A stretch of 64,000 nucleotides of DNA from positions 4,092,001-4,156,000 of the forward strand of contig NZ_CP015579.1 of NCBI RefSeq assembly GCF_002163585.1, read 5' to 3'. The stretch's first letter is position 1. Each line of letters starts with the position of its first letter. The notes under the pieces are model-generated. The model made no database searches. It saw nothing but the letters and a program-made list of their open reading frames with translations, and was not told the origin of the DNA. The DNA is from Tatumella citrea (GTDB lineage Bacteria; Pseudomonadota; Gammaproteobacteria; Enterobacterales; Enterobacteriaceae). Shown piece by piece: positions 4,627 through 44,396 of the stretch. Made by a program: the position numbers and the translations under genes.

Positions 4627-6939
4627 ATGAAAACAGCAAACAATCTTACCAGTACCCACTGGGGGACTTACCATGTGGAAACAGCGGATGATAAAATCGC
4701 TGCTATGACGCCGGTAGCCTGGGATAAAAACCCGTCACGAATTGGTCAGTCAATGCCAGAGGCTGTTACCGGCAATACCCGTATCCGCCGCCCCGCTGTA
4801 CGACTGGGTTACCTGAAAAACGGGCCAGCCTCTCGTGAAGGACGAGGCAAAGAGCCGTTTGTGGAAGTCAGCTGGGAGCAGGCTCTCGACCTGGTCGCCC
4901 GCGAGATGCAATCGGTAAAGCAACGCCATGGCAACGAGGCCATTTATGGCGGCTCTTACGGCTGGGGCAGTGCCGGGCGTTTTCATCACGTCCAGAGCCA
5001 GCTACACCGGTTCCTTAAAGGGTTCGGTGGTTATACTGCCAGTACGAATACCTACAGCAGTGCCGCCGGAGAGCGTATCCTGCCGCATATTATCGGCCCA
5101 CTCAGCCCACTGCATACTCTGCATACCCACTTTTCAGTACTGGCAGAACACTGCGAAGTGTTTGTGGCAATTGGCGGCCTGCCACTAAGAAACTCACAGG
5201 TTAATGTCGGTGGTGCCAGTGACCATATGTTGAAACACTGGCTGGAAACTCTGCAGGCTAACGGGGTCAAATTTATCAACGTCAGCCCGGTCAAAAATGA
5301 CCTGAGTGCTGTAAGTAATGCGCAGTGGCTGCCGGTCAAACCCGGCACGGATACCGCCCTGTTGCTGGCGCTGTGCCAGACCTTAATCAGCGAAAATCTG
5401 CATGATACGGCGTTTATTGCCAGCCATACTGTCGGCTTCGAACCGTTACGTCAGTATCTGTCGGGTGAAACCGACGGAGTAGTTAAAAGCGCGGAGTGGG
5501 CTGCCCCTATCACCGGATTGGCGGCAGAGCAGATTACCGGGCTTGCCCGCACTCTCGCCGGTCACCGCAGTATGGTGAATATTTCATGGTCATTGCAGCG
5601 TTCTCGCCAGGGTGAGCAGGCTTACTGGGCCACTGTGGCATTAACTGCACTGCTGGGCCAGATAGGCACCCCGGGCGGTGGGCTGGCGTTTGGTTATGCC
5701 TGTACCAATCTGGCCGGTGCTGACCGGGTCGCATTTTCCGGGCCGCGTCTGCCTGCCGGGGAAAATAAGGTTAACACTATTATCCCTGTCGCCAGGCTGT
5801 CGGATATGCTGCTGAATCCCAGAGGCGACTATCAGTTTGATGGTAAGGACTGTCGCTACCCGGATATCCGGATGGTTTACTGGGCCGGAGGGAATGCATT
5901 CCACCATCACCAGGATCTTAACCGGCTGGTCGATGCATGGCGGCAACCAGAGACAGTGGTGGTTCATGAACAGTACTGGACTGCCCAGGCGAAATTCTCC
6001 GATATCGTACTCCCTGCCACCACTGTGCTTGAGCGCAATGATATCGGCAGTGGCAGCCACGATGGTTTTATGGTCGCTATGCGTCAGCATATTCCCCCGG
6101 TGGGTGATGCGCGCGATGATTACGCCATTTTCTGTTCTTTGGCAGAGCGCCTTAACTTTGCCGACGTCTTTACCGAAGGGCGTAACCCAGAACAATGGCT
6201 AAAGCATATTTATGAAGAATCCCGCCCACGCGCTGAACTGGATGGTATTAATCTGCCGCAGTTTGATGATTTCTGGGAGCTTGGCAAGCTGGAATTTGAT
6301 CGCCCGGCAAGCCCGCAGATATTCTTATCAGCATTCCGCGCTGACCCTCAGCAAAATCCGCTGACGACGCCATCCGGTAAAATTGAACTGTTTTCTGAAA
6401 CCGTGGCCGGATTTGGGTATCGTGAATGCCCGGGATATCCATTCTGGGATACTCAGGAACATGATTATCAGCAGCAACAGGCGGCACAATGGCCACTGCA
6501 TTTACTTTCCAGCCAGCCCAGAACCCGACTACACAGTCAGTATGATCATGGCAGCGTCAGTCGCCAGACCAAGATTCAGGGCCGGGAACCTTTATGGATG
6601 CACCCTGAGGATGCGGCAGCACGCGGTATCAGTGAAGGATCAGTGGTCAGAGTGTTTAACCAGCGTGGCGCCATTCTGGCAGGAGTTCATCTGAGTGATC
6701 AGATCCGTCAGGGTGTGGTGCAGATCTCGACCGGAGCCTGGTATGATCCGCAAGATCCGTCAGTTCCGGGATCGTTGGATAAACACGGTAATCCTAATGT
6801 GCTGACAGAAGATCGTGGCAGCTCGCGTCTGGGACAAGGATGCAGTGCTCAAAGCTGTAAAGTCGAGATAGAACGCTGGCAGCAACCCGTTCCGGAAATC
6901 ACTGCATTTTCGCCACCGGAATTTGTTGAGATAAATTAA
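4627..6939 (+). CDS. bisC: BisC/TorZ-type molybdopterin N/S-oxide reductase
   Basis: This 770-residue protein is a DMSO-reductase-family molybdoenzyme close to E. coli BisC (biotin sulfoxide reductase). The N-terminus lacks a twin-arginine signal and the Fe-S cysteine motif, as expected for the cytoplasmic BisC group. YGGSYGWGSAGRFHH (107-121) and NTYSSAAGER (141-150) carry the pterin-binding region and the Mo-ligand serine (Ser144). Later motifs include YWAGGNAFHHHQD and the C-terminal pterin-binding HSQYDHGSVSR. BisC enzymes reduce biotin sulfoxide and free methionine sulfoxide in the cytosol. The gene is alone, with no electron-transfer subunit beside it, which also fits BisC. A strong inverted repeat follows the stop codon. 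Confidence 0.88.
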   Translation: MKTANNLTSTHWGTYHVETADDKIAAMTPVAWDKNPSRIGQSMPEAVTGNTRIRRPAVRLGYLKNGPASREGRGKEPFVEVSWEQALDLVAREMQSVKQRHGNEAIYGGSYGWGSAGRFHHVQSQLHRFLKGFGGYTASTNTYSSAAGERILPHIIGPLSPLHTLHTHFSVLAEHCEVFVAIGGLPLRNSQVNVGGASDHMLKHWLETLQANGVKFINVSPVKNDLSAVSNAQWLPVKPGTDTALLLALCQTLISENLHDTAFIASHTVGFEPLRQYLSGETDGVVKSAEWAAPITGLAAEQITGLARTLAGHRSMVNISWSLQRSRQGEQAYWATVALTALLGQIGTPGGGLAFGYACTNLAGADRVAFSGPRLPAGENKVNTIIPVARLSDMLLNPRGDYQFDGKDCRYPDIRMVYWAGGNAFHHHQDLNRLVDAWRQPETVVVHEQYWTAQAKFSDIVLPATTVLERNDIGSGSHDGFMVAMRQHIPPVGDARDDYAIFCSLAERLNFADVFTEGRNPEQWLKHIYEESRPRAELDGINLPQFDDFWELGKLEFDRPASPQIFLSAFRADPQQNPLTTPSGKIELFSETVAGFGYRECPGYPFWDTQEHDYQQQQAAQWPLHLLSSQPRTRLHSQYDHGSVSRQTKIQGREPLWMHPEDAAARGISEGSVVRVFNQRGAILAGVHLSDQIRQGVVQISTGAWYDPQDPSVPGSLDKHGNPNVLTEDRGSSRLGQGCSAQSCKVEIERWQQPVPEITAFSPPEFVEIN

Positions 6940-6945
6940 CCGTCC

Positions 6946-6984
6946 GTGGATATGATATTCTGCAATAGCAGATATCATATCCAC
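6946..6984 (+). terminator. Long hairpin downstream of bisC
   Basis: A near-perfect 17-bp stem with one bulged T starts 6 bp after the bisC stop: GTGGATATGATA at the left end pairs with TATCATATCCAC at the right, and TCTGC with GCAGA around a 4-nt AATA loop. No long T-tract follows, so it may be a weak terminator or an mRNA 3'-end stabiliser. Confidence 0.6.
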
Positions 6985-7212
6985 TATTATTCAGCAACCA
7001 CGCAGATAACACTCCCACCTAAATATAAATCACCCGATAATTTAATCAGCACGGCATTAAAAATATTAATTATTTACCACTACCTCTCCACAACAAATAA
7101 CTCAAAGTGAAGTTATAAATAATATTTATCTGTATGAAATTTCTGAAATCCATTTATTTAAAATAAACAGGGACAGAGTCAATTTCCGCTTTTTTTAGTT
7201 TTTACCAGACCA

Positions 7213-7258
7213 ATAATTATCTGAGAAACACGGATAATTATCACAATATGATTGTGAT
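7213..7258 (+). promoter_or_regulatory. Candidate operator region upstream of the histamine operon
   Basis: The 359-bp bisC-hdcT1 gap is AT-rich. It holds two copies of ATAATTATC (7213-7221 and 7234-7242) spaced 21 bp apart, i.e. two helical turns. A perfect 7-bp inverted repeat ATCACAA-TATGA-TTGTGAT (7240-7258) overlaps the second copy. The cluster sits 86-131 bp before hdcT1. The regulator is unknown; the palindrome is reminiscent of but does not match the CRP consensus. Confidence 0.45.
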
Positions 7259-7343
7259 CAAAAAAACCACCTCTCCTCCCTCTAAAATATTTTTTAAAAC
7301 AACCTGAAAATCGACTCAACATTTCACTATAGGAAATTCTATT

Positions 7344-8690
7344 ATGGGGACGGTAAGTAAAAGCTCCGCTCATAAAATGGGCGTCGTGGCACTCACCTTA
7401 GTGACTGCATCAAATATGATGGGTTCCGGGGTATTTATGCTACCCACTAACCTGGCTGGCGTTGGTTATATTTCACTGTGGGGATGGTTACTGACGATTG
7501 TCGGCGTCATCGCGCTGGCGCTGGTGTTTGCCAAAACCAGCCTGCTGACCCCGCGCAACGGAGGAATTGTCGCTTATGCCAGCGATGCTTTCGGCCCGTT
7601 TATTGGCTTTCAGACCACACTCTGCTACTGGATAAGCGCCTGGGTAGGAAATGTAGCACTGCTGGTTGCCGGGGTCGGCTATCTGAGCTACTTCTTCCCT
7701 GAACTGCGAAATCCAACCTACGGTTGTATCGCGGCCATTGTGATTCTGTGGGCGTTTGTGGTACTGGCAAGCTTTGGTGCCAGAGTCGCTGGCCGGGCAC
7801 AGTCCTTCACCGCCAGTTGTATGCTGGTTGTGGTGTTGGGTGTCGGGGTAGTCGGCTGGTTCTGGTTCGACCCGCACATGTTCAGCCAGGTGTACAACGG
7901 TACCGGAAAAAGCAACAGCTCAGCCATTATCTCTGCGTCCTCCATTGCCTTGTGGGGTTTCCTCGGGGTTGAATCAGCAGTAGTTTCCAGCGGACAAGTG
8001 GATAACCCGGAAAAAACCGTCCCTAAAGCCACTGTTTATGGCCTGCTGATTGCCTCCGTCTGCTATGTCGGTAGTTGCAGCGTCATTATGGGGCTGGTCC
8101 CGCATGAAGAACTGATTAAATCCGCAGCACCATTTGCCGATGCCGCCCGATATATGTTCGGCGATATGGCAGGCAACATTGCCTCTGCTCTGAGTATTAT
8201 CGCCTGCTTTGGTTCGATTTCCGGTTGGTTAATCCTGCAGTCAGAAGGCCCGCGCGCTGGTGCCCGCCAGGGACTGTTCCCGAAATTCTTCTCGGATACC
8301 AATAAACAGGATGTCCCGATGAAAAGCCTGATTTTCACCGGGGTACTGATGAGTCTGGTATTAATGCTGACCGCCTCGCCGGATCTGGCACGCCAGTTCC
8401 AGGTAGTCATTCTTATGTCGGTTTTCGCTTCGCTGCTGCCTTATATGTATGCCCTGATTTCTCTGCCAATCATCATGATTTCTAAAAAGATCAATCGCGG
8501 CAGAACCTTTATGTTCTACAGCGTGCTGACCGTGATTGGGATTGTCTACAGTATTTTCGCCCTGCTGGGTGCCGGTACAGATTCAATGTTCTGGGGCGTT
8601 GTCATGATGATGGTCACTATCCCCTTATATTCATTTGTTGCGGCCGGCAGAAATAAACAAGGCCAGGACATTCTCTATCTCGATAAATAA
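7344..8690 (+). CDS. hdcT1: Histidine/histamine antiporter, APC family
   Basis: This 448-residue, 12-helix inner-membrane protein belongs to the basic amino acid/polyamine antiporter group (AdiC, CadB, PotE). It carries the TM1 signature [19 protein letters not shown] and the TM6-region stretch [18 protein letters not shown], equivalent to the substrate-binding segment of AdiC. Position directly before hdc (35-bp gap with AAAGGAG) supports histidine import against histamine export. Exchange consumes net protons through the decarboxylase and so can resist acid or build proton-motive force. The order hdcT1-hdc-hdcT2-hisRS matches the known Morganella morganii cluster. The start follows AGGAAATTCTATT. 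Specificity is inferred from context. Confidence 0.87.
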
Positions 8691-8725: not shown

Positions 8726-9862
8726 ATGACACTGTCAATTGCAGATCAAAATAAACTGGATGAATTCTGGTCCTGGTGTGTTAAAAACCAGTATTTCAAT
8801 ATTGGTTACCCGGAGTCCGCTGATTTTGATTACACCATTCTTGAACGTTTCATGCGCTTCTCTATCAATAACTGTGGTGACTGGGCTGAATACTGCAACT
8901 ATCTGCTAAATTCATTTTCTTTCGAAAAAGAGGTTATGGAATATTTTTCCGACCTGTTCAAAATTCCTTTTTCCGAAAGCTGGGGATATGTCACCAATGG
9001 TGGTACTGAAGGTAATATGTTTGGTTGCTATCTGGGACGGGAATTATTTCCTGATGGTACGCTCTATTATTCTAAAGATACTCACTATTCAGTAGCAAAA
9101 ATTGTCAAACTGCTGAGGATTAAGTCCAGCGTTGTCGAATCGCAGCCTAACGGTGAAATTGATTATGATGACTTAATGCAGAAAATCACCCGTGATAATG
9201 AACGCCATCCGATCATTTTTGCCAATATCGGGACTACCGTTCGCGGAGCGATTGATGATATTGCGCTTATACAACAACGCCTGAAAGAGAGTGGCATCCG
9301 CCGTGAGGACTACTATCTGCATGCTGACGCTGCACTCAGCGGGATGATCCTGCCTTTTGTAAAAGATGCCCAGCCATTTACTTTTGCAGACGGTATCGAC
9401 TCGATTGGCGTTTCCGGCCATAAGATGATTGGTTCCCCGATCCCGTGTGGCATTGTGGTCGCAAAGAAAAAGAATGTAGACCGTATCTCTGTCGAGATTG
9501 ACTATATTTCTGCCCACGATAAAACCATCACCGGTTCCCGTAACGGCCACACTCCACTAATGATGTGGGAAGCTATCCGAAGCCATTCACACACTGACTG
9601 GCAACGGAGGATTGAACGTAGCCTGACTCTGGCACAATACGCGGTCGATCGCTTCCGGGAAGCAGGTATTCCGGCCTGGCGTAACCGCAATTCGATTACA
9701 GTCGTGTTCCCTTGTCCTTCGGAATCGGTATGGCAAAAACATTGCCTGGCCACTTCCGGTGATGTGGCACATCTGATCACCACCGCCCACCATCTGGACA
9801 GCACTAAAATTGATGCCCTGATCGACGACGTTATCGCTGATTTAGCCCACAAAGCGGCATAA
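8726..9862 (+). CDS. hdc: Pyridoxal-phosphate histidine decarboxylase
   Basis: This 378-residue protein has the size of the PLP-dependent histidine decarboxylases of Gram-negative bacteria (Morganella, Raoultella, Photobacterium), which convert histidine to histamine plus CO2. It belongs to the group II decarboxylase fold. Visible residues are VTNGGTEGN (89-97, phosphate binding), His120 in THYS (ring stacking), Asp201 in HADAALSG (pyridine nitrogen) and the Schiff-base Lys233 in SGHKMIGSP. The C-terminus ends in a helical region after FPCPSE. The gene lies between two APC exchangers. Two strong stem-loops directly follow its stop codon and may set its level above that of the downstream genes. 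Confidence 0.95.
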
Positions 9863-9938: not shown

Positions 9939-10030
9939 TCACATCTGCGCCAGAGTATCACACGACCTGATCACCGGAACGTGGGTCAGATCAACTCTCT
10001 GCCATGCCAGTTTATTTACAGGGCTACGTG

Positions 10031-11401
10031 ATGACGAACGACAAAAATATCTCCCCGCATAAAATGGGCCTGCCGACACTGACCATAATGACAGCATCCA
10101 ATATGATGGGCAGTGGCGTATTTATGCTGCCCGCCACCCTGGCAGGTATTGGTTCTGTCTCTGTATGGGGCTGGATGCTGACATTTCCCGGGGTGATTGT
10201 TCTGGCCCTGATCTTCAATAAAATTAACGCTATCCATCCGCAAAATGGCGGAATAATTGCCAATATAGGTCACTGCTTTGGCCCGTTTGTTGGCCTGCAA
10301 ATGACGCTTTTTTACTGGTTATCCACGTGGATTGGCAACTGCGCTCTGTTGTTAGCCAGTATCAGCTATCTGTCCGGATTAGTCCCGGGACTGTCTACCC
10401 CCACAGGGGCGTTCTGTGGTTGTATGATTCTGCTCTGGTTGTCGGTGGTTTTCGGACTATTTGGAGTTCGCCTGGTCGGCGGGGCTCAGATTATCACCGG
10501 CAGCTGCATGATGCTGGTTATCCTGTCGGTTGCCGTCTGCGGCTGGTTTCATTTTAGCCCGCATAATTATTTGTCTGCATATAACGTGAGTGGCCAGAGT
10601 CAGACGCAGGCAATATTTCACGCCGCGACTCTCTCGATGTGGGGCTTCCTGGGTATGGAATCTGCTTCGGTTTCTTCAGGCCAGGTTAGGAACCCACGTC
10701 GTACCATTCCACTGGCAACACTGGCCGGACTGGGTATCGCCCTGCTCTGCTATCTGATTTCCAGTAATGCCATTATGGGCCTGCTGCCGCACAGCAGCCT
10801 GGTCGTATCAGCTTCACCCTTTGCCGACAGTGCCAGACTGCTGTGGGGACCCCGGGCCGCGCAGATTGTCTCTCTGCTGGTCGTCATTGCCTGCATCGGC
10901 GCAATTCCTGGCTGGCAGATATTGCAGACTGAGGTCCCCAGAGCGGCCGCCGGTGCCGGGTTATTCCCGGCCGTGTTTGGCAAAACCAATCGCTTTGGGG
11001 TGTCCTGGGTTGCGCTGATTTTTACTTCAGTGCTGATGTCAGGCGTACTGCTGATGACACTATCTGCTGACCTGCAGTCACAATTTCGTACCGTCATTGG
11101 CCTGGCAGTCTCCGCTTCGCTGTTCCCTTATGCCTTCGCCGCGCTATCACTGCCAGTCATGCTGATTCGGTTATCAGCCAGTCGCCGGAAAACCTCTGGT
11201 TGGGTGTTGATGGCTTTAGTGGCGCTAACATTTGTCAGTCTGGCCATTATTTCCGGTCAGTCTGACACACTGGTGTGCGGAATATTGATACAGATGGCTA
11301 CTCTGCCACTTTACCTGCTTTACACTTCCCGTCGGAAAAAACCGGCCCTGCAGGACGAATCCGGTCAGCCGGCCGCTCTGTTGGCCGAATACAAGGAATG
11401 A
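10031..11401 (+). CDS. hdcT2: Second histidine/histamine antiporter, APC family
   Basis: This 456-residue, 12-helix APC exchanger is clearly paralogous to hdcT1: both begin HKMG shortly after the start and share [16 protein letters not shown](R/D)NP and the SxSxFADxAR region. I place the start at the ATG at 10031 (MTNDKNISPHKMG), which aligns with hdcT1; an in-frame ATG at 10004 would add nine residues without a better ribosome-binding site. The stop codon is two bases before the hisRS ATG, so the two genes are translationally linked. The Morganella cluster likewise has two exchanger genes around hdc. The division of labour between the two is not visible in sequence. Confidence 0.85.
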   Translation: MTNDKNISPHKMGLPTLTIMTASNMMGSGVFMLPATLAGIGSVSVWGWMLTFPGVIVLALIFNKINAIHPQNGGIIANIGHCFGPFVGLQMTLFYWLSTWIGNCALLLASISYLSGLVPGLSTPTGAFCGCMILLWLSVVFGLFGVRLVGGAQIITGSCMMLVILSVAVCGWFHFSPHNYLSAYNVSGQSQTQAIFHAATLSMWGFLGMESASVSSGQVRNPRRTIPLATLAGLGIALLCYLISSNAIMGLLPHSSLVVSASPFADSARLLWGPRAAQIVSLLVVIACIGAIPGWQILQTEVPRAAAGAGLFPAVFGKTNRFGVSWVALIFTSVLMSGVLLMTLSADLQSQFRTVIGLAVSASLFPYAFAALSLPVMLIRLSASRRKTSGWVLMALVALTFVSLAIISGQSDTLVCGILIQMATLPLYLLYTSRRKKPALQDESGQPAALLAEYKE

Positions 11402-11403
11402 TC

Positions 11404-12699
11404 ATGAACGAAATCAAATCTATCCGTGGCATGCATGATGTTCTGCCGGACGAAACTCCCCACTGGCAATGGCTGGAAAATAAATTCCGCCAGATGGTTC
11501 ACCGCTATGGTTATCAGGAAATGCGGCTACCGTTACTGGAGCCTGTGTCTCTGTTTGAGCGGGCGGTTGGCGCATCCACCGATATTGTGTCAAAGGAGAT
11601 GTACAACTTTCAGGATAAGAGCGGGGAGAATATCACCCTGCGCCCGGAAGGCACCAGTGGCTGCCTGCGGGCAGTGCTGGAAAATAATATGTGCTACAAC
11701 AAAACCCAACGCCTGTGGTATCAGGGCCCGATGTTCCGTTATGAGCGTCCACAAAAAGGCCGTCTGCGCCAGTTCACCCAGTTTGGGGTGGAAGCCTACG
11801 GGATGTCTGGTGCCGATATCGATGCCGAGCTGATTTTTATGGTCAGAGATCTGTTTGCCGGATTAGGTCTGGAAAAACATGTACGCCTGGAAATTAATTC
11901 TCTGGGGGACAGCAGTGAAAGGCAACAACATCGCGAGGCACTGGTCGGGTGGTTTAGTCGTCATGAGGATTTGCTGGATGAAGAAAGCAAAATTCGCCTG
12001 AAAGTAAGTCCACTGCGCATTCTCGACAGTAAAAACCCGCAGCTACAACCGATCATCGAACAGGCCCCGCAACTTCTGGATTTCCTGCAACAGGAGTCAC
12101 GCCAGCATTTTACTACCCTGTGCGAGCTACTGGATAAAGCCGATATCGCTTACCGGATCAACCCACGGCTGGTCAGGGGGCTGGATTATTATTCCAGGAC
12201 AGTATTTGAATGGATAACCGACGATCTCGGTGCCCAGGGCACCGTGTGTGGTGGAGGCCGTTATGATGGTCTGGCCGAACTGTTTAGTCACAAAACACTG
12301 CCATGCTGTGGGTTTGCGATTGGTATTGAACGGCTGTTGCTGCTACTGGAAGCCACGAACTGTAAGTCCGGCGATACCAGCCATATTCCGGATGTTGTGG
12401 TGACCTCAGAGCTGACCGATGGAGGAGTGCAGGCTCTGCTGCTAGCTGAGCAATTGCGCCGCCGGTTTACCAGTTTGCGGGTACTGACCGATTGCAGTAG
12501 TGCCAGGCTGAAACGGCAGCATCAGCATGCCCTGAACCGCCAATGCCGGATGATTATTACCCTGAACCAGGACGGGCAGATCAGATTGTGGGATCTACAG
12601 AATAATCATCAGCTGGACGTGGATGAGGCGCGACTGCATGCCACTATTGCCGGGCGGATGCAAAGCTGGCGGATGTCTGCACCAGCCACCCCGGCTTAA
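11404..12699 (+). CDS. hisRS: Histidyl-tRNA synthetase paralogue of the histamine cluster
   Basis: This 431-residue class II synthetase has all HisRS catalytic signatures: LRPEGTSG (motif 1 side), motif 2 FRYERPQKGRLRQFTQFG, the histidine-specific LVRGLDYYSRTVFEW, GGGRYDGLAE, and motif 3 GFAIGIERLL. The C-terminal anticodon-binding domain is diverged: where E. coli HisS has a GGGNFKKQ-type stretch, this protein has DCSSARLKRQHQ. HisRS genes are known companions of histidine decarboxylase clusters in Morganella and lactic acid bacteria, probably keeping tRNA-His charged while histidine is drained. It is not at the usual hisS locus (no ispG or der nearby). The ATG at 11404 follows ACAAGGAATGATC; a longer upstream frame overlaps hdcT2 and is rejected. 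Confidence 0.93.
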   Translation: MNEIKSIRGMHDVLPDETPHWQWLENKFRQMVHRYGYQEMRLPLLEPVSLFERAVGASTDIVSKEMYNFQDKSGENITLRPEGTSGCLRAVLENNMCYNKTQRLWYQGPMFRYERPQKGRLRQFTQFGVEAYGMSGADIDAELIFMVRDLFAGLGLEKHVRLEINSLGDSSERQQHREALVGWFSRHEDLLDEESKIRLKVSPLRILDSKNPQLQPIIEQAPQLLDFLQQESRQHFTTLCELLDKADIAYRINPRLVRGLDYYSRTVFEWITDDLGAQGTVCGGGRYDGLAELFSHKTLPCCGFAIGIERLLLLLEATNCKSGDTSHIPDVVVTSELTDGGVQALLLAEQLRRRFTSLRVLTDCSSARLKRQHQHALNRQCRMIITLNQDGQIRLWDLQNNHQLDVDEARLHATIAGRMQSWRMSAPATPA

Positions 12700-12781: not shown

Positions 12782-14632
12782 ATGCCCAGAAAAAACCGTC
12801 TGTTTATTGAGGGGTTGCCCCACCTGGTACAGCTGCGAGGCCATAATTCTCAGCCATTATTCCAGGACAGTACCGATTATCAGCACTGCCTTGGCTGCCT
12901 TGATAAAGCGCTACAGGAATATGATATACGGCTGCACGCCTATTCACTGACACCCGCCCGTGCACTGTTGCTGCTAAGTGCAGCCGACAAGCAACAACTT
13001 GGCCGTTTTATGCAGCATCTGGGGCGCAGCTATGTGCCGTTTTATAACCAGAAATATCACCGCCGCGGGGCATTGTGGGAAAGTCGCTATGACAGTTGCC
13101 CACTCGAAGCCAGCAGCTATTTTCTGTTAGTAAAAAAATATGTAGAACAGCCGGCACAGGAGCTACCCTGGCACAGCTTTGACGATCAACCTGCCACAAG
13201 AATCACCCCCCACAACGAATACCTGAACCTTGGCAGTGATGATCAGCAGCGCCGTCGCAACTATCAGGCGTTTTGCCGCACCCCGGACAGCCCTGCCATT
13301 ACCCTGAATATCGGTTATGCACTGGAGCAAAATTGCCTGCTGGCTACCGCTGGCTACAGCCGTCCACTGGAGCAAACCCTGCAGCGTCGCCTCAGACCAC
13401 GCCAGTCCGGTCGCCCAAGAAAACATTTTAATAATCCGGTGGTGATGTGGAGTCAGCTGGAAAATCAGGCGAAAGCGCTGTTAGATCGCTACTGCTATCA
13501 GGAGGTCCGGTTGAGTTTGCTGGAACAGGATGCCGTGCTGCCAGCGGTACGCTTCTCTCTGCAGGATAATGATTGTCCGGTCAGCCACCATAGCCGGTTG
13601 TGCAATGACGGTACCGAAAGTTGCCTGCAACTGGTGTCCCGTCATCGTCAGCTACAGGATGCCAGCCGGCTCTGGTATCTCGGCGAGACATTTCGTCATG
13701 GCGATGATCAGCCCCGGACTCTGCGTCAGTACCACCAGCTGGGGGTAGAGGCATTTGGCTATCAGGGAACAGCTATTGTGCTGGAGCAGCTTCAGCTTCA
13801 GCAGACCCTGTTTCGCCAGTTGGGCATCGATAAGCACACTGAGTTACGTATCAATACCCCGGGTACCGGGCAGGAATTCAGTGATTACTGTCACCGTTTA
13901 CGCCAGTGGTATCAGCCATTACATTACCTGCTGACGCCACAGCAGCAGCAATGGTCAGTCGAGAATCCGGTCCGTCTGTTGCAAAACATCGGGAATGATC
14001 CTCTGCTTAGTCGTCTCAACCAACAGGCCCCCTGCGCTACCGGGTTTCTTTCAGAGCACTCTCGCCAGCAATTTACCCTGCTATGCCAGGCGCTGAACCA
14101 ACTGCATATCCCCTACATCCATGACCACGGACTATTTTCTGCTAACCATTACAATACCTTAGTCTTCGAATGGCATAACGATATGCTGGAAGAACACTCA
14201 TTACTCAGCCGTGGCGGATGTTATGATGAAAATGCCAGCCGTATCGCTGGTACACCTTTATCGGCCTGTGGTTTCACAATGATGTTCGACAATCTGATGC
14301 AGTTACTGGTTAGATTACAGGGTACCGGAGTACTCAGCCCGCCCACGGATGTTGTGATCATTGCCGATCAGGAAAAAAATCGCTCCGCCGCCCTGATCCT
14401 TGGCAGAAAACTCCGTCAGCATTTCCCGCAACTCAGTATCATCAATGACTGCTCGTCACTGCGCCTGCCCACCCGAATCAGAAATGCTCTGCACCAGGGG
14501 GCCAGGGTTATTTTGCAGGTAAATGAAGACGACAGCGCACTGACTCTGATGACCCGCGAGCCGGCGAGCGAACAGCAACTTCCGGTCAGCGAGGTCATCG
14601 CACAGCTCAGCCGGTTAATGTTAGTGCCTTAG
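12782..14632 (+). CDS. Fusion of degenerate Y1 transposase domain and degenerate HisRS-like domain
   Basis: This 616-residue protein is an unusual chimera. Residues 1-219 match REP-associated Y1 transposases: GLPHLVQLRGHNSQPLF near the start, RRGALWESRYDS (94-105), KKYVEQP (118-124, Tyr120 at the nucleophile position) and the basic tail RRLRPRQSGRPRKH (202-215). The metal-binding HUH pair is lost: MPNHVHLL is replaced by LTPARALL (Arg60, Leu62). Residues 220-616 align over their length with the neighbouring HisRS: RLWYLGETFRHGDD, LRQYHQLGVEAFG, TLVFEWHND and a shared DCSSLRL. Catalytic elements are destroyed: motif 2 Glu is Gly307, RGLDYY is replaced by FSANHY, GGGRYDG is RGGCYDE, and the motif 3 ERLL is DNLM. 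The frame is intact throughout, so both halves appear retained for a non-catalytic role. It is 82 bp after hisRS and before a terminator. Confidence 0.9.
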   Translation: MPRKNRLFIEGLPHLVQLRGHNSQPLFQDSTDYQHCLGCLDKALQEYDIRLHAYSLTPARALLLLSAADKQQLGRFMQHLGRSYVPFYNQKYHRRGALWESRYDSCPLEASSYFLLVKKYVEQPAQELPWHSFDDQPATRITPHNEYLNLGSDDQQRRRNYQAFCRTPDSPAITLNIGYALEQNCLLATAGYSRPLEQTLQRRLRPRQSGRPRKHFNNPVVMWSQLENQAKALLDRYCYQEVRLSLLEQDAVLPAVRFSLQDNDCPVSHHSRLCNDGTESCLQLVSRHRQLQDASRLWYLGETFRHGDDQPRTLRQYHQLGVEAFGYQGTAIVLEQLQLQQTLFRQLGIDKHTELRINTPGTGQEFSDYCHRLRQWYQPLHYLLTPQQQQWSVENPVRLLQNIGNDPLLSRLNQQAPCATGFLSEHSRQQFTLLCQALNQLHIPYIHDHGLFSANHYNTLVFEWHNDMLEEHSLLSRGGCYDENASRIAGTPLSACGFTMMFDNLMQLLVRLQGTGVLSPPTDVVIIADQEKNRSAALILGRKLRQHFPQLSIINDCSSLRLPTRIRNALHQGARVILQVNEDDSALTLMTREPASEQQLPVSEVIAQLSRLMLVP

Positions 14633-37165: not shown

Positions 37166-38410
37166 TCAGCCGGCAATATCGTTCTGCGCGTAGTAATCCC
37201 AGGCTGCCTGCATTCCCGCACCCTGCGGCGTCGAAAACCCCTGCCGGTGCAATACCGCTTCCAGAGCACTCAACGTTTGCATGACGCACTGAGTACGCGC
37301 GTTATAACCCATGGTGCCAATACGCCATACTTTGCCTACCAACGGGCCAAACGAAGTACCAATCTCGATGCCGAAATCCTGCAACATACTGTTCCTGACC
37401 GCCAAATCATTGACGCCTTCAGGAATCATCACTCCCAGGACATTATTCATTTTATGGGAGATATCACCGAACAGCTCAAGCCCCATCGACCGGACACCGC
37501 GTAACATGGCTTCGCCATGCTGCTGATGGCGGGCAATGCATTGCTCCAGCCCTTCTTCAAGAATAATCCGTGCACATTCCCGTGCGCCATATAACGCACT
37601 GGTGGCCTCGGTATGGTGATTAAGCCGCTCACTGCTCCAGTAATCCATGATCATCCCCATATCGAAATAATTGGAGTAGATCATTTCATCTTCACCGTGC
37701 TGGTGAGCTTCGGTACGAATACCCGCCTCCACCCGACGACGACGACGAATATGCTCAGCCATCCGCTCGCTCAGAGTGACTGGCGAAGTCCCGGAAGAAC
37801 CGCCGAGGCATTTCTGCATTCCGGCAGAGACCGCATCCAGACCCCAGCCATCGGTGTCTAAGGTATTTCCGCCCAGAGTGGCGGTAGCATCGGTATAGAA
37901 CAGCACATCGTAGCGCCGGCAAATCGCCCCAATCTCCTGCAATGGCTGGCACATGGTGGTAGAAGTATCCCCGTGTACCGTCAGCAGCATTCGTGGCCGC
38001 AGCCGCTTAATTTCATCTTCTATCTGATCGGGGCTAAAGACTTCACCCCAGGGAATATCCAGCCGGTGGACTTCTGCGCGGCAGCGATGAGCAATTTCAC
38101 ACAGCAGTTCGCCAAACCGGCCGAAAACCGGCACCAGAACTTTATCGCCGGGACGTATCGCGGAAACCAGTAAGGCTTCAATACCGGCCCTGGAGGTCCC
38201 GTTAATCAGCAGCGTCCAGAGATTCTTCGTGGAGAAAACGCCGCGATACAGAGCCATGACTTCATTCATATAGCCGGTCATTGCCGGGTCATACTGTCCC
38301 AGTAACTGCGCAGACATCGCCCGCAGTACCCGCGGGTCTGCATTAATAGGCCCGGGCCCCATCAGCAATCGGGCCGGGGGATTAACCTGGGAAAAAATCT
38401 CGTTATTCAA
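37166..38410 (-). CDS. Class V aminotransferase, PucG/alanine-glyoxylate type
   Basis: This 414-residue PLP enzyme belongs to the alanine-glyoxylate/serine-pyruvate/(S)-ureidoglycine-glyoxylate aminotransferase group. Visible are LLMGPGPINADPRVL (15-29), LLINGTSRAGIEA (67-79, phosphate site), FYTDATATLGG (Asp174), and the Schiff-base Lys200 in SAGMQKCLGGSSG. The glycine-rich ending of that motif resembles PucG/HpxJ, which transaminates the unstable ureide (S)-ureidoglycine with glyoxylate. It is the last gene of the minus-strand transport operon, 16 bp after the ATPase gene. Neighbouring hydantoinase and flavoenzyme genes suggest it processes an amino compound released from a ureide or amino acid derivative. 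Confidence 0.85.
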   Translation of the reverse strand: MNNEIFSQVNPPARLLMGPGPINADPRVLRAMSAQLLGQYDPAMTGYMNEVMALYRGVFSTKNLWTLLINGTSRAGIEALLVSAIRPGDKVLVPVFGRFGELLCEIAHRCRAEVHRLDIPWGEVFSPDQIEDEIKRLRPRMLLTVHGDTSTTMCQPLQEIGAICRRYDVLFYTDATATLGGNTLDTDGWGLDAVSAGMQKCLGGSSGTSPVTLSERMAEHIRRRRRVEAGIRTEAHQHGEDEMIYSNYFDMGMIMDYWSSERLNHHTEATSALYGARECARIILEEGLEQCIARHQQHGEAMLRGVRSMGLELFGDISHKMNNVLGVMIPEGVNDLAVRNSMLQDFGIEIGTSFGPLVGKVWRIGTMGYNARTQCVMQTLSALEAVLHRQGFSTPQGAGMQAAWDYYAQNDIAG

Positions 38411-38426
38411 CCGCTATTTCCTCTGT

Positions 38427-39164
38427 TCAGTGACGTAATATTTTGCCAATAAATTGCTGAGTACGGGCTTTTTCGGGATGGTCAAATATCTGCTGCGGAG
38501 TGCCGCTTTCGATCACCTCTCCGTCAGCCATAAACACCACTTTTGAAGAGACTTCACGCACAAAACTCATCTCATGAGAAACGATAAACATCGTCATCCC
38601 CTCAGCTGCCAGCTCGCGTATGGTATCCAGTACTTCATTCACCATTTCCGGGTCGAGGGCGGCAGTCACTTCATCCAGCAATAAGATTTTAGGTTTCAGG
38701 GCCAGGGCGCGGGCAATAGCCACACGTTGCTGCTGTCCACCGGACAATTCATCCGGATAGGCGTACAACCGGTGAGATAATCCAACCCGCTCCAGCAATT
38801 GTCTGGCCTCCTGCTCAACTTCAGCTTTCGGACGACCTTTAATTTTGGTCGGGGTAATCATCACGTTTTCCAGCACGGTCATATTCTGGAACAGGTTGTA
38901 CTGCTGGAATACGATAGCTACCGAGGAACGTAGCTGGCGCAGTTGCTGCTTATCCGAATATTCCAGTTTCTCGCCATCAAGACAAACATGGCCTTCTGAA
39001 GGCAGCAGCAATCCCATCAGCACTCTTAACAGGGTACTTTTCCCCGATCCGGACGGACCTATCAGGCTGACAATGTCCCCTTTCTCCACTGGCAGGGTGA
39101 TATTGACCAGCACCGGCTGTTCACCATAGGCCGCTTTAAGATTAACGATATCGAGCTGTGGCAA
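38427..39164 (-). CDS. Polar amino acid ABC transporter ATPase (GlnQ-like)
   Basis: This roughly 245-residue ATPase has Walker A GPSGSGKST, the Q-loop in VFQQYNLF, signature LSGGQQQRVAIARAL, Walker B ILLLDEVTAALD and the switch histidine in IVSHEMSF. It energises the two permeases encoded upstream. I place the start at a TTG (39164) because CTGGAG lies 7 nt upstream and the frame then begins LPQLDIVNLKAAYG like the family. A longer ATG form at 39188 would overlap the upstream permease by 47 bp and has no ribosome site. It overlaps the permease gene by 23 bp. Confidence 0.85.
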   Translation of the reverse strand: MPQLDIVNLKAAYGEQPVLVNITLPVEKGDIVSLIGPSGSGKSTLLRVLMGLLLPSEGHVCLDGEKLEYSDKQQLRQLRSSVAIVFQQYNLFQNMTVLENVMITPTKIKGRPKAEVEQEARQLLERVGLSHRLYAYPDELSGGQQQRVAIARALALKPKILLLDEVTAALDPEMVNEVLDTIRELAAEGMTMFIVSHEMSFVREVSSKVVFMADGEVIESGTPQQIFDHPEKARTQQFIGKILRH

Positions 39165-39831
39165 TTTTATTCTCCAGGCGCTTACCAAAGCGCGATAAAG
39201 GATAAGAGATGCAGAAATAAAGGATCAGCACCGTGGCATACACCAAAGCTGCGGAAAATCCCTTATCTGTAAGTACTTTGCTGGCAGATGTCAGTTCCAT
39301 CACACCAATCTGCGAGGCGAGAGTGGTATCTTTGATATACATAATGAAAAAGCTAAAAGTCGGAGGAATAACTACCTTAATCGACTGAGGAATAATGATG
39401 TATCGCAGGCTTTGCAGATAACTGAAATTGAGAGTTTCTGCGGCTTCCCACTGGTTACGGTGTACCGACTCCAGCCCGCTGCGAATCACCTCTCCCAGAT
39501 AAGCTGCGGCAATCAGGCAGACACTCACCAGCGCTACCATAAAGGTGGACAATTTCAGACCGGAATACTGGCTGATAAAAAAGATCAGCATCAGTGTGAC
39601 CAGGAACGGTATGCGCCGGAACATAAAGCAGTAAATACGGATAAGCCCTCGTAATGGCTTAAGTACTTTGCTGCTGGTATTACCGAAAATAGCCAGCACA
39701 AATCCCAACAGGAAACCTACCAGACAGCCAAACGCGGACAATGCCAGCGTTCGCCCCAGTCCCTGCAATAACAGCAGTATGTTGTACCAGGAGAACAACC
39801 CGCTCAGTTCATTAACAAGTGAATAGTTCAT
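39142..39831 (-). CDS. Polar amino acid ABC transporter permease (second)
   Basis: This 229-residue HisM/GlnP-type inner membrane permease has about five helices and the EAA-like loop GLESVHRNQWEAAETLNFS followed by LRYIIIPQSIKVVIPP, which contacts the ATPase. It starts with a 1-nt overlap (TGATG) with the upstream permease gene and overlaps the ATPase gene downstream. With its partner it forms the heterodimeric channel. Confidence 0.87.
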   Translation of the reverse strand: MNYSLVNELSGLFSWYNILLLLQGLGRTLALSAFGCLVGFLLGFVLAIFGNTSSKVLKPLRGLIRIYCFMFRRIPFLVTLMLIFFISQYSGLKLSTFMVALVSVCLIAAAYLGEVIRSGLESVHRNQWEAAETLNFSYLQSLRYIIIPQSIKVVIPPTFSFFIMYIKDTTLASQIGVMELTSASKVLTDKGFSAALVYATVLILYFCISYPLSRFGKRLENKIATARYR

Positions 39832-40499
39832 CAGAAGACCTCTGTTCTGGCGCGGAACAGATACCGGCCGATGACCGCCAGCGCGAATGTCGCAATCACT
39901 GTCAGGATGATGTAGAGCACGGCGGCGACTGAAAATGATTCCACAGAAAGATAGGTTTCTGAGCTCAGGTTATAGGTACGCCCTGTCAGCTCTTCAACCC
40001 CGAACATTGATGCCATCGAAGTACCGAGTGTCATCACAATAAACTGGTTAGACAGTGGCCGGAACATCACTTTCATCACATGCGGCAGGATGACATAACG
40101 AATAATCTGCAACCGGGAAAAGCCCAGCACTTCTGCCGCCTCGATTTCACGCTGACGGACCGAATCAAATCCGGCCCGCTGAATATCACACAGATAGGCG
40201 CCGGCATTGAAGGTCGCCCCAATCAGCACTGCATTAAACGGCGACAGCAGGATCCCCACTTCCGGCAGAGCAAAAAACAGGAAATAGATCTGAATCAGCT
40301 GAGGGGTATTGGTTGCGAACACCACATAGGCATTGACCAGTTTCCCGGCCAGCGGGGGCCCGTAACGCAACAGAGAGGTGCAGACCATGGCAATCAGCAT
40401 GCCAAAGGCAAAGGCCAGCACTGCCAGTTGCAGACTGATCCACGCCCCTCCGGCCAGATAAGGTAACTGATTGAGTATTGGGGCAAAATTCAAAGTCAT
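39831..40499 (-). CDS. Polar amino acid ABC transporter permease (first)
   Basis: This 222-residue HisQ/GlnP-type permease has the EAA loop GFDSVRQREIEAAEVLGFS followed by LQIIRYVILPHVMKV, and several hydrophobic helices. It is paralogous to the next permease gene. It lies 61 bp after the binding-protein gene, and a hairpin with a T-run sits in that gap. Confidence 0.87.
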   Translation of the reverse strand: MTLNFAPILNQLPYLAGGAWISLQLAVLAFAFGMLIAMVCTSLLRYGPPLAGKLVNAYVVFATNTPQLIQIYFLFFALPEVGILLSPFNAVLIGATFNAGAYLCDIQRAGFDSVRQREIEAAEVLGFSRLQIIRYVILPHVMKVMFRPLSNQFIVMTLGTSMASMFGVEELTGRTYNLSSETYLSVESFSVAAVLYIILTVIATFALAVIGRYLFRARTEVF

Positions 40500-40511
40500 C
40501 GAAATAATCTC

Positions 40512-40540
40512 AAAAAATCAGCACCTTAAAATCAAGGTGC
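40512..40540 (-). terminator. Attenuator-like hairpin between binding protein and permease genes
   Basis: On the minus strand GCACCTT-GATTTT-AAGGTGC is followed by TGATTTTTTG. Such partial terminators after the binding-protein gene commonly keep its transcript in excess over the membrane components. Confidence 0.7.
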
Positions 40541-40560
40541 CTGAGGTGATGATAAAAAAC

Positions 40561-41379
40561 TTAGTACTTTGTCGGTGAAGCAGTCGGATCATGCAACATG
40601 GCGTGACCGAACCACTTCTTCCAGGTCGAGGCAATAAAGCCATCTTTTTGCAAAGTGTCGATCGCCTGGTTCAGACGCACACGCAGATCGGTATTGCCTT
40701 TGCTGACCGCAATACAGTCATAATCGACTTCGATAGGCTCATCCACGACCCGCCATTGGGTTGGATATTTTTTGGTGTAATCCAGCATGAAATCCAGCAC
40801 ATCGATCAGTGCATCAGCACGACCCTGGGCGATAGCACGCACCGCATCCGGATAGTTATCCAGAATCAGTAACTGTGCTTTAGGCACATTGTCCTGAATG
40901 TATTTAATCGGGGTTGTGCCACGTACCTGCACCAGACGCACTGACGGGTCATTCAGTTGCTGCACGTTTTTGTAGGTTGTTTTATTTGTGGTGAGAATAC
41001 CCAATACCTCGGTGTTCACCGGGTCGGTAAAATCTACCACCTGCATCCGCTGATCGTTACGGGTCATTCCCCCCATCACCGCATCAATTTTGTCTGCCAT
41101 GATGAATGGCACACGGTCATTGGAGCCCACAGCAACCAGTTGCAGTTTGACACCCATCTGGTCGGCAATTTTTTGAGCCACCGTCGCATCAAATCCGGAA
41201 ATCTGATTTTTTGCATCATAAACGCCCAGCGGCGGAAGGTTAGGATTTACCCCGACGATCAGTGTTTTGCTCTCCATGATTTGCTGCAACGTCCGGGCCT
41301 GGGCACCAAACGAACTCAGCATCATCAGTGAAATAACACCGGCTCCGGCAAGCTTACCTAACGTACTCATTTTAAACAT
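40561..41379 (-). CDS. Periplasmic amino-acid-binding protein of ABC transporter
   Basis: This 272-residue protein has a signal peptide (cleavage near GAQA/RTL) and a family 3 solute-binding fold: LIVGVNPNLPPLGVYD, SGFDATVAQKIADQMGVKL, DAVMGGMTRNDQRMQVVDFT and VRGTTPIKYIQ are typical. The ATG at 41379 follows GGGGAATTAAAT. It is the first gene of the minus-strand operon, divergent from the flavoenzyme operon, with a putative GntR operator between them. Polar or charged amino acid derivatives are the likely ligands. Confidence 0.87.
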   Translation of the reverse strand: MFKMSTLGKLAGAGVISLMMLSSFGAQARTLQQIMESKTLIVGVNPNLPPLGVYDAKNQISGFDATVAQKIADQMGVKLQLVAVGSNDRVPFIMADKIDAVMGGMTRNDQRMQVVDFTDPVNTEVLGILTTNKTTYKNVQQLNDPSVRLVQVRGTTPIKYIQDNVPKAQLLILDNYPDAVRAIAQGRADALIDVLDFMLDYTKKYPTQWRVVDEPIEVDYDCIAVSKGNTDLRVRLNQAIDTLQKDGFIASTWKKWFGHAMLHDPTASPTKY

Positions 41380-41457
41380 ATTTAATTCCCCGTGTGCGGT
41401 CATTCAGATAAAGGTTAACGGCTAAAATTTCATCCTGATCAGTTCGAATACTTTACA

Positions 41458-41474
41458 TATACGATTCGTATACG
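41458..41474. promoter_or_regulatory. Candidate GntR operator (site A)
   Basis: TATACGATTCGTATACG occurs 79 bp before the binding-protein start and 63 bp before the ferredoxin-subunit start. The same pattern TATACG-N4-GTATACG recurs upstream of the island's gntR gene (site B). It is therefore a strong candidate for the shared operator controlling both divergent operons. Confidence 0.75.
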
Positions 41475-41537
41475 ATACTATCTCGATCGAATTGTCAAGC
41501 ATCACTGTTTACTTGATAAACAACGCCGGGGAGCGTA

Positions 41538-41822
41538 ATGCCGAAAATGAGTGACGAAAAAATAAGCTTTACCTTTGAAAATCAACGCTGTTTTGCATTA
41601 CCGGGACAAAGCATTGCTGCGGCCCTGTTTTCGAACGGCATCAAAACATTACGTCTCAGCCCGGCACGACAGCAGCCCCGTGGAATGTTCTGTCTGATGG
41701 GGTCCTGTCAGGAATGCCTGGTAATGGTCAACGGTAAACGGGCGTTAGCTTGCAAAACTGAGGCCAAATCTGAACTCAAAGTCACCTGTATCCCGGTAAT
41801 GGAGCAACATGAACCATTTTGA
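41538..41822 (+). CDS. [2Fe-2S] subunit of an HcnABC/opine-oxidase-like flavoenzyme
   Basis: This 94-residue ferredoxin-like subunit carries the cluster ligands in GMFCLMGSCQECLVMVNG plus a fourth Cys in RALACKT (pattern C-x4-C-x2-C-xn-C). It corresponds to HcnA, OoxA-associated or D-hydroxyproline dehydrogenase gamma subunits. GGGGAG lies 4 nt before the ATG at 41538. It overlaps the next gene by 14 bp, so the complex is translated as a unit. Confidence 0.87.
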   Translation: MPKMSDEKISFTFENQRCFALPGQSIAAALFSNGIKTLRLSPARQQPRGMFCLMGSCQECLVMVNGKRALACKTEAKSELKVTCIPVMEQHEPF

Positions 41823-43227: not shown

Positions 43228-44396
43228 CAGTCAACACTACTGCAACCCGCTACGACGTGTGCATTATCGGCGGCGGAGTCATGGGATGCACCACCGCCCT
43301 GTTCCTGGCTCGTGCCGGAATGAAAGTCGTCTTGCTGGAGAGAAATGCATTGTGCCGCGGAGCTTCCGGAGTCAATGCAGGAACCCTGACGTTACATATG
43401 ACCCGTGCAGCACTTGTGCCCTATGCCCTGAAAGCCTGGGAAATGTGGATGCATCCGGAAACCTGGCTGGGTAACGGAGTACTGGCAACCGCGGCCCCCG
43501 GACTGTCTCTGGCATTTACTGCGGCGGAGCAGGATTTACTGGAACAGCGTGCAGCCGCACGACGGGAATATGGTGCCGATATCCGGCTGGTGAGTGGTCG
43601 TGAAGCCCGGGAAATTGAACCCTGTATTCCTGACAGTTGCCTGTCTGCCGCTTACTGTGAAACCGACGGTTATGCCAGTGCCTATCTGACCGGCAAGGCA
43701 TTCCATGCGGCACTCAGTCAGGCGGGTGTCACGATTATCGAAAATGCTGAAGTGGACCAAATTACTCCGCCAGGCAAATGCTACCAGGTCTCCGCCCGTG
43801 GCGGCCAGATACAGGTTTCAGCGACCCGGCTGGTAATGGCCGGAGGCGTCTGGCTGGAACCCATGCTGGCACTTCTCGGGATCACCATCCCTGTGAAAAC
43901 GTTGGTGAATCAGTTGATTGTGACCGAACGCATGCCTCCGGTCATGCGCACCGTGCTGAGTATTGCCAACGGACTGTTATCGATGAAGCAATTTGCGAAC
44001 GGCACAGTACTGATTGGTGGTGGCTGGCAGGGTCGGGGGAACCGTGATTCTGGTCGCCCCGAGACTATTCCGGAGAATCTGACCGGCAATTTGCGATTGG
44101 GCCAGTATGTCTGCCCGGCACTGGCTAATGCCAGAGTGGCAAGAATCTGGCTGGGCTTTGAGTCTGAGACTGCCGATGCGATGCCCATGATTGGCCCGTT
44201 GTCGGAATACCCTGATTTATACGTTATCGGATGTGTTCACTCCGGATACACCAGTGGCCCGTGGATGGGGAAATTACTGGCTGACGCTATCCTCGGTAAC
44301 CCCCCGGAAATGCCTCTCTTTAATCCTTCCCGGCTGATTATTCCTGCCGGAGTGCAGTCTGAAAATTTTGCGGAGAAACAGAATGAGCAGCAGTGA
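43224..44396 (+). CDS. HcnC/OoxB-like FAD-dependent amino acid oxidase subunit
   Basis: This 390-residue DAO-family flavoprotein has VCIIGGGVMGCTTALFLARAG for FAD binding, LCRGASGVNAGTLTLH in the catalytic-domain start, and the C-terminal FAD-contact region MPMIGPLSEYPDLYVIGC, then HSGYTSGPWMGK. It is the substrate-oxidising subunit of the three-part dehydrogenase. Homologous complexes oxidise glycine (HCN synthase), octopine/nopaline, or D-hydroxyproline, all secondary or primary amines next to a carboxylate. The true substrate here is unknown. The following DapA-family gene overlaps by 14 bp. Confidence 0.88.
   Translation: MTVNTTATRYDVCIIGGGVMGCTTALFLARAGMKVVLLERNALCRGASGVNAGTLTLHMTRAALVPYALKAWEMWMHPETWLGNGVLATAAPGLSLAFTAAEQDLLEQRAAARREYGADIRLVSGREAREIEPCIPDSCLSAAYCETDGYASAYLTGKAFHAALSQAGVTIIENAEVDQITPPGKCYQVSARGGQIQVSATRLVMAGGVWLEPMLALLGITIPVKTLVNQLIVTERMPPVMRTVLSIANGLLSMKQFANGTVLIGGGWQGRGNRDSGRPETIPENLTGNLRLGQYVCPALANARVARIWLGFESETADAMPMIGPLSEYPDLYVIGCVHSGYTSGPWMGKLLADAILGNPPEMPLFNPSRLIIPAGVQSENFAEKQNEQQ

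Follow-up and report, generated by a model that had tools for sequence, protein, structure and literature searches.

Previous studies of Gram-negative histamine operons describe a small gene cluster, given as hdcT1, hdc, hdcT2, and hisRS in a Morganella genome paper (PMC12072131), and the excerpts of PMC12072131, PMC10308900, and PMC9227395 considered here name no dedicated regulator of such operons. We analyzed a 64,000-nucleotide stretch of Tatumella citrea (the window; contig NZ_CP015579.1, positions 4,092,001 to 4,156,000 of the forward strand), in which a histamine operon ends with a gene that fuses a Y1 transposase-derived domain to a domain resembling histidyl-tRNA synthetase (HisRS). 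The operon has the same hdcT, hdc, and hisRS genes as the Morganella and Photobacterium clusters, but the fusion gene is not among the cluster genes given in the excerpts of those reports (PMC12072131, PMC10308900). In our reading, the fusion is quite probably a dedicated one-component histidine-responsive regulator of the hdc operon, with a DNA-binding part and an operator that would both be transposon-derived.

The transposase half is similar to the TIRYT/RAYT proteins of subclass 2.1 (PMC3733652, PMC6006769), TIRYTs being tyrosine transposases associated with terminal inverted repeats (TIRs), in its full-length Y1 fold, its GR.YV..N..Y.R.G.LW..R core, its GRPRK-type tail, and a putative recognition sequence of the GGGGWSAS kind. 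Compared with these proteins, the fusion has lost the HUH motif in all rows, often carries Phe in place of the Tyr, possesses an extra HisRS-like half of 400 residues, sits in an operon, and is accompanied by a single repeat before hdcT1 instead of a gene-flanking pair. The HisRS-like half shares with hisS and with hisRS2, the second HisRS gene of the operon, core segments of similar length and order and the histidine-pocket residues, but it has no motif 2 Glu, Arg121, Arg259, or motif 3 Arg, and with 146 bits it stays far below the NCBIfam hisS cut-off of 287. Dead HisRS paralogues are known as regulators, such as HisZ and GCN2. The likeness to HisZ lies in the use of a catalytically dead HisRS paralogue in regulation; unlike HisZ, the fusion keeps an anticodon-like domain, carries a transposase domain, and sits with a catabolic operon, and on the curated HisZ model it obtains 61.8 bits and does not reach the cut-off of 271.65. 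No hisG was spotted by eye among the operon genes, no search aimed at hisG having been made. In the case of GCN2 of eukaryotes, a HisRS-like domain also serves as the sensor within a fusion protein, but GCN2 has a kinase partner and senses tRNA, whereas the motif 2 loop of the present fusion is unconserved.

The fusion gene occupies 12782-14632 on the plus strand as an open frame of 616 codons. The Y1 transposase-derived (RAYT/TIRYT-like) domain comprises residues 1-214 (12782-13423), ends in GRPRK, and aligns over its full length with free-standing Y1 proteins; Pfam Y1_Tnp (PF01797) matches residues 22-123 with an E-value of 3.1e-5, over the cut-off. The HisRS-like domain comprises residues 215-616 (13424-14632), with a catalytic core and a diverged anticodon-binding domain; Pfam tRNA-synt_His (PF13393) matches residues 223-504 (E 7.3e-17), the NCBIfam hisS model matches residues 220-587 (E 1.3e-42) without reaching its cut-off of 286.75 bits, and a phmmer search of solved structures aligns residues 219-604 with E. 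coli HisRS 1kmm (E 4e-43). An earlier reading of this stretch, made from its letters without database searches (the sequence-only reading), had described one intact frame joining two full-length domains, and Pfam, NCBIfam, and 16 records with the identical architecture bear this out. All of these are 605-633 amino acids long with 0 stops, and 15 are distinct, the fusions of genome G269 and of Klebsiella aerogenes LR134122 being identical. In the Tatumella genome (4.49 Mb, 2 contigs, completeness 100), the fusion is single-copy, adjoins the second HisRS gene, and is distant from the housekeeping hisS. Since it recurs in 15 distinct records and as a single copy in a complete genome, it is no assembly artefact; the transposase-HisRS fusion is real and without decay.

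The gene is under purifying-type constraint as judged by the ratio of nonsynonymous to synonymous substitution rates (dN/dS), which was calculated for eight pairs, of which six gave values (0.044-0.148 for the whole gene), one was identical, and one had a saturated dS. In the four Morganella pairs (dS 0.28-1.0), the ratio was 0.044-0.074 over the whole gene and, by half, 0.051-0.111 (transposase) and 0.039-0.064 (HisRS), beside 0.029-0.060 for hisRS2. Two distant pairs, the Tatumella pair at 0.080 (dS 1.98) and G016-Pantoea at 0.148 (dS 1.89), are near saturation and hence rough. Across both halves, the overall range was 0.04-0.16. The values thus lie far below 1 across homologues, and the decay near 1 that the sequence-only reading had wanted checked is not seen. 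A quick tree places the fusions in a single clade (SH-aLRT 100) with a branching order broadly like that of hisRS2, hisRS2 itself grouping weakly (43). Over 15 taxa, the distances among fusions correlate with those among hisRS2 proteins (r 0.968), a value matched by 0/2000 shuffles; the fusion is co-inherited with hisRS2 and evolves faster, with a mean p-distance of 0.51 vs. 0.28.

Among the 60 relatives searched, we found four full-length orthologues besides that of the window, with identities of 78, 50, 45, and 46%. The plasmid collection contained one record covering more than 80% of the query, K. aerogenes LR134122, in which the gene is annotated as hisS_3. A single-protein query gave 0 matches in the scan of named genome contigs; an alignment query recovered fusions and added Pantoea sp. 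BAV 3049, Pantoea sp. 1.19, a Pluralibacter metagenome-assembled genome, Morganella morganii, and M. psychrotolerans. The K. aerogenes record LR134122.1 (L018), 568 kb and called "plasmid 2", is probably a piece of chromosome, because its fusion and hisRS2 are identical to those on a 5.28-Mb contig of G269. With one genome per species and at most three candidates scored per genome, the family sample held the fusion in 12 of 392 genomes, and a histidine decarboxylase model run over the same 392 genomes matched exactly these 12. The orthologue adjoins hdc in 12/12; whether the fusion always sits beside hdc-hisRS was a check that the sequence-only reading had proposed. In wider samples, hdc turned up in 8 more genomes when 394 of the order were searched and in 14 more when 369 of the class were, and the fusion is absent from all 22 of these, 3 of which are less than 80% complete. 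It was likewise absent at E 1e-100 from a class sample of 157 other genomes and was not found on viral contigs; 16 phage records match, none over 80% of the query and with HisRS only among the matches listed; and blastn of E. coli genomes with the K. aerogenes fusion gene gave no match. In G004, a genome of the same genus without the operon, only the final 31 fusion codons are left, immediately behind the stop codon that ends the preceding molybdopterin-oxidoreductase-like gene (L023, ~9005-9100); this remnant is a clean deletion scar from which the block has been lost.

The two halves have lost catalysis in different ways. Free-standing Y1 relatives outside the family have an intact HUH motif (NHVHLL), equal length, and a G-R-P-type tail, and their HUH histidines are present in 26 and 25 of 27 rows (second and first position as listed). 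In the fusions, the second His is replaced by Leu in 16/16, and the first is non-His in 15/16 (G199 retains His), so that the replacements noticed earlier in the window protein, Arg60 and Leu62, turn out to be a family-wide trait. The catalytic Tyr position holds Tyr in 10/16 and Phe in 6/16; Tyr120 does remain in the window protein, as had been noted, but it is not a conserved catalytic residue. The core GR.YV..N..Y.R.G.LW..R is invariant in the fusions, and the basic DNA-binding tail, also claimed earlier to be retained, is GRPRK in 16/16. With HUH lost while the core and the tail are invariant, catalysis has therefore been given up and the fold and the basic tail kept; a catalytic transposase is ruled out by the dead HUH of every fusion row. 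A joint profile matches the IS200/IS605 structure 2xm3 (E 4e-6) and TnpAREP 4er8 (E 0.08). A free-standing Y1 protein in G872 (L184) is also without both HUH histidines, perhaps by an independent domestication.

For the HisRS-like half, residues are numbered as in E. coli HisS from the alignment. All 16 fusions have lost the catalytic residues Glu115, Arg121, Arg259 (Pro in 14, Ser in 2), and Arg311 (Pro in 13, Asn in 2, Ser in 1), and all 16 retain Thr85, Gln127, Glu131, Tyr264, Gly285, Gly286, Tyr288, and Asp289; Glu83 is Asp in 11 and Glu in 5, and Arg113 is present in 14/16. In the hisRS2 rows, all compared catalytic and pocket residues are kept in 17/17. Of the residues compared, Glu83, Thr85, Gln127, Glu131, Tyr264, and Tyr288 are taken as those of the presumed histidine pocket. 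The replacement of the motif 2 Glu, of Arg259 in RGLDYY, and of the motif 3 Arg311 was thus correctly read from the window, each being kept in 0/16. For GGGRYDG, likewise reported as replaced, the claim holds at position 290, which is Gly in 1/16 only, and fails for the four residues 285, 286, 288, and 289 listed above and for the Arg, which is kept in 14/16 with Cys only in two Tatumella fusions. Glu83, Arg113, Glu131, Arg259, and Arg287 are given as conserved charged HisRS residues in the part of PMC8558854 considered here. The identity among the fusions, compared with that among hisRS2 proteins, is 0.71 vs. 0.83 in the Gln127 strand, 0.81 vs. 0.94 in GGRYD, 0.43 vs. 0.52 in the anticodon-binding part, and 0.27 vs. 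1.00 in the motif 2 loop. In HisRS, the motif 2 loop contacts ATP and the tRNA acceptor end. An active, tRNA-charging HisRS is ruled out by the loss of catalytic residues, and the residue pattern is that of a protein which would still be able to hold histidine and be unable to activate it. Retention of the pocket residues alongside a drifted motif 2 loop leads us to favor histidine over tRNA-His as the ligand; the well-kept anticodon part would nevertheless allow a role for tRNA.

When the 400 bp preceding hdcT1 were compared among 16 loci, the 15 fusion loci proved to have a block in common that is missing from the fusion-less G045. The block contains a terminal-repeat-like candidate operator, AAATAAACAGGGACAGAGTCAATTTCCG, at 7161-7188 on the plus strand of the window (GGGAC.. 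from 7170), which includes GGGACAGAGTC. Fourteen of the 15 distinct fusion operons carry a perfect GGGACRGAGT, and the remaining one departs from it at a single position; the site lies 167-188 bp before the hdcT1 start codon. In the whole Tatumella genome, exact GGGACRGAGTYAAT occurs once, at the candidate operator (one-mismatch copies 4, reversed control 7). With up to one mismatch allowed, the short pattern is found twice in the window vs. 1.4 expected and so carries no significance there by itself, unlike the TIR matrix and the conservation. At 10 hdc loci without the fusion, exact GGGACRGAGT occurs in 0/10 and a one-mismatch copy somewhere in the examined stretch in 4/10. A scan for the operator pattern (up to one mismatch) gave no copy around the fusion gene in the loci where it ends the operon, GGGGWSAS alone not having been scanned there.

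The TIR consensus of TIRYTs is GGGGWSAS (PMC6006769 and the part of PMC3733652 considered here). Of 29 free-standing Y1 loci, 23 are full-length and intact, 3 of them with one flank short, and GGGGWSAS in proper inverted orientation lies upstream (within 300 bp) at 13/23, downstream (within 330 bp) at 11/23, and on both sides at 10; the wrong-strand control gave 0 + 0 and the reversed control 0 + 1. We built a 28-bp matrix from 26 TIRs of 16 free-standing loci only (consensus AAATAAAAGGGGTCAGAGTCAATTTAAA), leaving the operators out, and scanned both strands. Over the 127,946 positions of the window, the site before hdcT1 ranks first with 18.8 bits against 13.6 for the runner-up; the operators of the 14 other fusion loci likewise head the ranking in their own loci, with 14.6-21.6 bits.

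Downstream of the operator lies a CRP/FNR-type core, TGATTGTGATCA, at 7249-7260 on the plus strand, its center 85 bp from the operator start. The core TGA[TC]N4[AG]TCA occurs once per locus downstream of the operator, with its center 84-86 bp from the operator's first G in 15/15 loci; 84 bp is eight turns of B-DNA. Among 11 loci (55 pairs), the mean pairwise identity is 0.80 in the operator (-7 to +14) and 0.27, the chance level, from +41 to +75 between operator and core, with a few extra conserved positions near the operator at about +30 to +40. Three Morganella cores are a perfect TTGATN4ATCAA, and that of G021 looks more CRP-like by eye. In either gene arrangement, it is hdcT1 and not the fusion gene to which the orientation and distance of the operator are fixed, and this constancy, whichever side the fusion lies on, argues for a working site and not a relic.

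We searched for a wider regulon with exact GGGACRGAGTNNNTT in 15 genomes and obtained 13 matches, of which 9 are at hdc loci (9 of the 12 fusion genomes), against 11 in the reversed control. The remaining four, one each in G002, G223, G234, and G369, are at background level; by eye, the matches in G002 and G223 fall within long reading frames, and the two in Morganella are one and the same site. A wider regulon is unsupported, the matches outside hdc loci being at background compared with the reversed control. This second GGGACGGAGTTTATT site of two Morganella genomes (L191 at 2130, L192 at 295) lies at the start of a YrdA-like gene; it may represent background, the remnant of a transposon, or an additional target.

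A mechanism consistent with these comparisons would run as follows. The N-terminal half would be a TIR-associated Y1 transposase in domesticated form, without the HUH nuclease but still able to recognize its DNA, and it would bind the operator upstream of hdcT1, whose sequence would be its own group's terminal inverted repeat. The C-terminal half would be a HisRS unable to activate histidine with its pocket residues kept, and histidine in this pocket would alter how the fusion sits on the operator. Most likely, the protein would act with CRP or FNR to activate hdcT1-hdc-(hdcT2)-hisRS2 when histidine is plentiful; activation is favored because the operator lies about eight helical turns upstream of the CRP/FNR-type box, and this position next to the box at a fixed phase suggests co-activation with CRP/FNR. 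The DNA binding, the histidine binding, and the sign of regulation we infer from sequence comparisons. A putative sensor and a putative DNA-binding domain in one protein, together with a conserved candidate operator, would fit the architecture of one-component regulators. The sequence-only reading had suggested a domesticated nucleic-acid-binding regulator sensing histidine or tRNA-His; the adjacency to hdc in 12/12 genomes, the low dN/dS, and the conserved TIR-like element lend sequence support to it, and we narrow it to histidine as the signal and to DNA upstream of hdcT1 as, most likely, the nucleic acid bound.

Several observations weigh against this reading. TnpAREP, a relative of the transposase half, binds single-stranded REP hairpins, whereas binding to a duplex operator is assumed here, and the candidate operator is non-palindromic. 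The literal GGGGWSAS occurs in only 4/15 operators, the window having AGGGACAG and most others GGGGACGG, and GGGGWSAS is missing upstream at 10/23 free-standing loci (at two of these, the upstream sequence covers less than 75 bp). The best matrix sites at 8 fusion-less hdc loci reach 6.6-16.0 bits and overlap the weakest operator (L138, 14.6), the top one, at 16.0 bits, lying on plasmid L195 at 7160, 2 kb past hdc. The core pattern was widened post hoc, the strict FNR consensus having given a gap of 74-76 bp in 13/15, and common descent could partly explain a fixed spacing across related operons. In the sensor half, the change of Glu83 to Asp in 11/16, the loss of Arg113 in 2/16, and one residue missing in 257-263 could weaken histidine binding.

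In a rival reading, a sensor of uncharged tRNA-His akin to GCN2, the HisRS-like half would bind tRNA instead of free histidine, and the transposase half would act on the hdc promoter. GCN2 binds uncharged tRNA through a HisRS-related domain, according to the part of PMC4335047 considered here, and the anticodon part of the fusion persists, its identity relative to hisRS2 (0.43 vs. 0.52) giving about the same ratio as the pocket strands; however, the motif 2 loop is not conserved, and histidine-pocket residues kept in 16/16 would be needless for tRNA sensing, so we consider this sensor unlikely. We give similarly little credence to a repressor or autoregulator made of the same parts, which histidine would dislodge from the operator and alongside which CRP/FNR would work independently. 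In its favor, the divergent layout in Morganella and G021 lets the fusion gene and hdcT1 share the intergenic region in which the operator lies, while the position of the operator some eight turns upstream of an activator-type box at fixed spacing points the other way, with the caveat that a sigma-70 scan of 6900-7400 placed no promoter (3 sites vs. 2.6 in shuffles).

Still less probable, to our mind, is a regulator at the level of RNA or single-stranded DNA, or a subunit pairing with HisRS2, with the upstream element a passive transposon leftover. HisRS enzymes are dimeric, which would suit a partner of HisRS2. The part of PMC6006769 considered here describes single-stranded DNA bearing REP hairpins as the substrate of Y1/TnpAREP proteins, but a leftover would hardly keep its orientation and spacing to hdcT1, and not to the fusion gene, in both layouts, nor hold 84-86 bp while the sequence from +41 to +75 drifts to chance identity. 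A decaying pseudogene or a cloning or assembly artefact, a case the sequence-only reading had itself raised, would account for two dead catalytic centers and for the last 31 codons retained in G004 after operon loss; it is contradicted by the 15 distinct intact orthologues, by the low dN/dS of the six valued pairs, and by the company of hdc in 12/12 genomes, and we reject it as next to impossible on the orthologues and dN/dS. The histidine-responsive activator described above is the reading that we prefer.

In the window, the operon runs hdcT1, hdc, hdcT2, and hisRS2, with the fusion gene last, all on the plus strand. The hdcT1 gene (7344-8690) encodes a histidine/histamine antiporter-like permease (PF13520, E 5.2e-56), and hdcT2 (10004-11401) encodes a second antiporter-like permease (PF13520, E 1.1e-36). 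The hdc gene (8726-9862) encodes a pyridoxal phosphate-dependent histidine decarboxylase (NF002748, 612 bits, cut-off 305), which confirms the histamine-operon context proposed earlier. The hisRS2 gene (11401-12699) encodes a second histidyl-tRNA synthetase (TIGR00442, 453 bits, cut-off 287) with all examined catalytic residues present, as in 17/17 operons; a second working HisRS may perhaps protect tRNA charging when hdc drains histidine. The fusion closes the operon in Tatumella, Pantoea, Pluralibacter, K. aerogenes, G016, G032, and G199; in Morganella and G021 it is oriented divergently from hdcT1. Among the fusion operons, those of Tatumella, G032, G021, and Morganella alone include hdcT2, and by eye the flanking genes vary between lineages. 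G045 has hdcT1-hdc-hisRS2 alone without the fusion, the same three genes as in the Photobacterium cluster according to the excerpt of PMC10308900.

Other hdc genes stand in different surroundings. Three lie in apparent siderophore clusters by eye, in G784, G978, and, as a second copy, G223 (G223:C104 = L139; also L133 and L134), and no antiporter, hisRS2, or fusion was found within the examined stretch of L139, L133, and L134. A lone hdc with ~73% DNA identity to that of the window is carried on conjugative plasmids of E. coli/K. pneumoniae, L195 (NZ_CP076278.1) and L196 (NZ_FO834904.1), with no antiporter annotated within the 9-kb stretch. Elsewhere in the window, 37166-46766 holds an aminotransferase, an ABC transporter, oxidoreductases, and a dihydropyrimidinase-like gene and by eye resembles a nitrogen-compound catabolic cluster. 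Rfam gave no element in the window at the gathering threshold.

No description of a Y1 transposase-HisRS fusion was found in titles and abstracts of the open-licence literature, which is weak as evidence of absence. Annotation as one more hisS, as in K. aerogenes, is probably why the fusion has been overlooked. In one census of Y1 proteins, those that were longer than expected were dropped on the view that they were fusions or misannotations, as described in the part of PMC6006769 considered here. Taken as a whole, the locus would, on balance, represent a new class of bacterial regulator, in which a domesticated HUH transposase reads its own TIR as an operator and a dead aminoacyl-tRNA synthetase serves as an amino-acid sensor, in fixed helical phase with CRP/FNR. 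Domesticated transposases acting as transcription factors are known in eukaryotes, and no bacterial regulator that binds DNA through an HUH-transposase part or uses a HisRS as its sensor is known to us. If our reading is true, this would be, to our knowledge, the first bacterial transposase turned transcription factor along with its own terminal repeat as the binding site, and it would mean that a dead HisRS can serve as a sensor of free histidine. Histamine operons matter for histamine food poisoning, and the fusion would, if this is true, supply them with a regulator and a defined operator.

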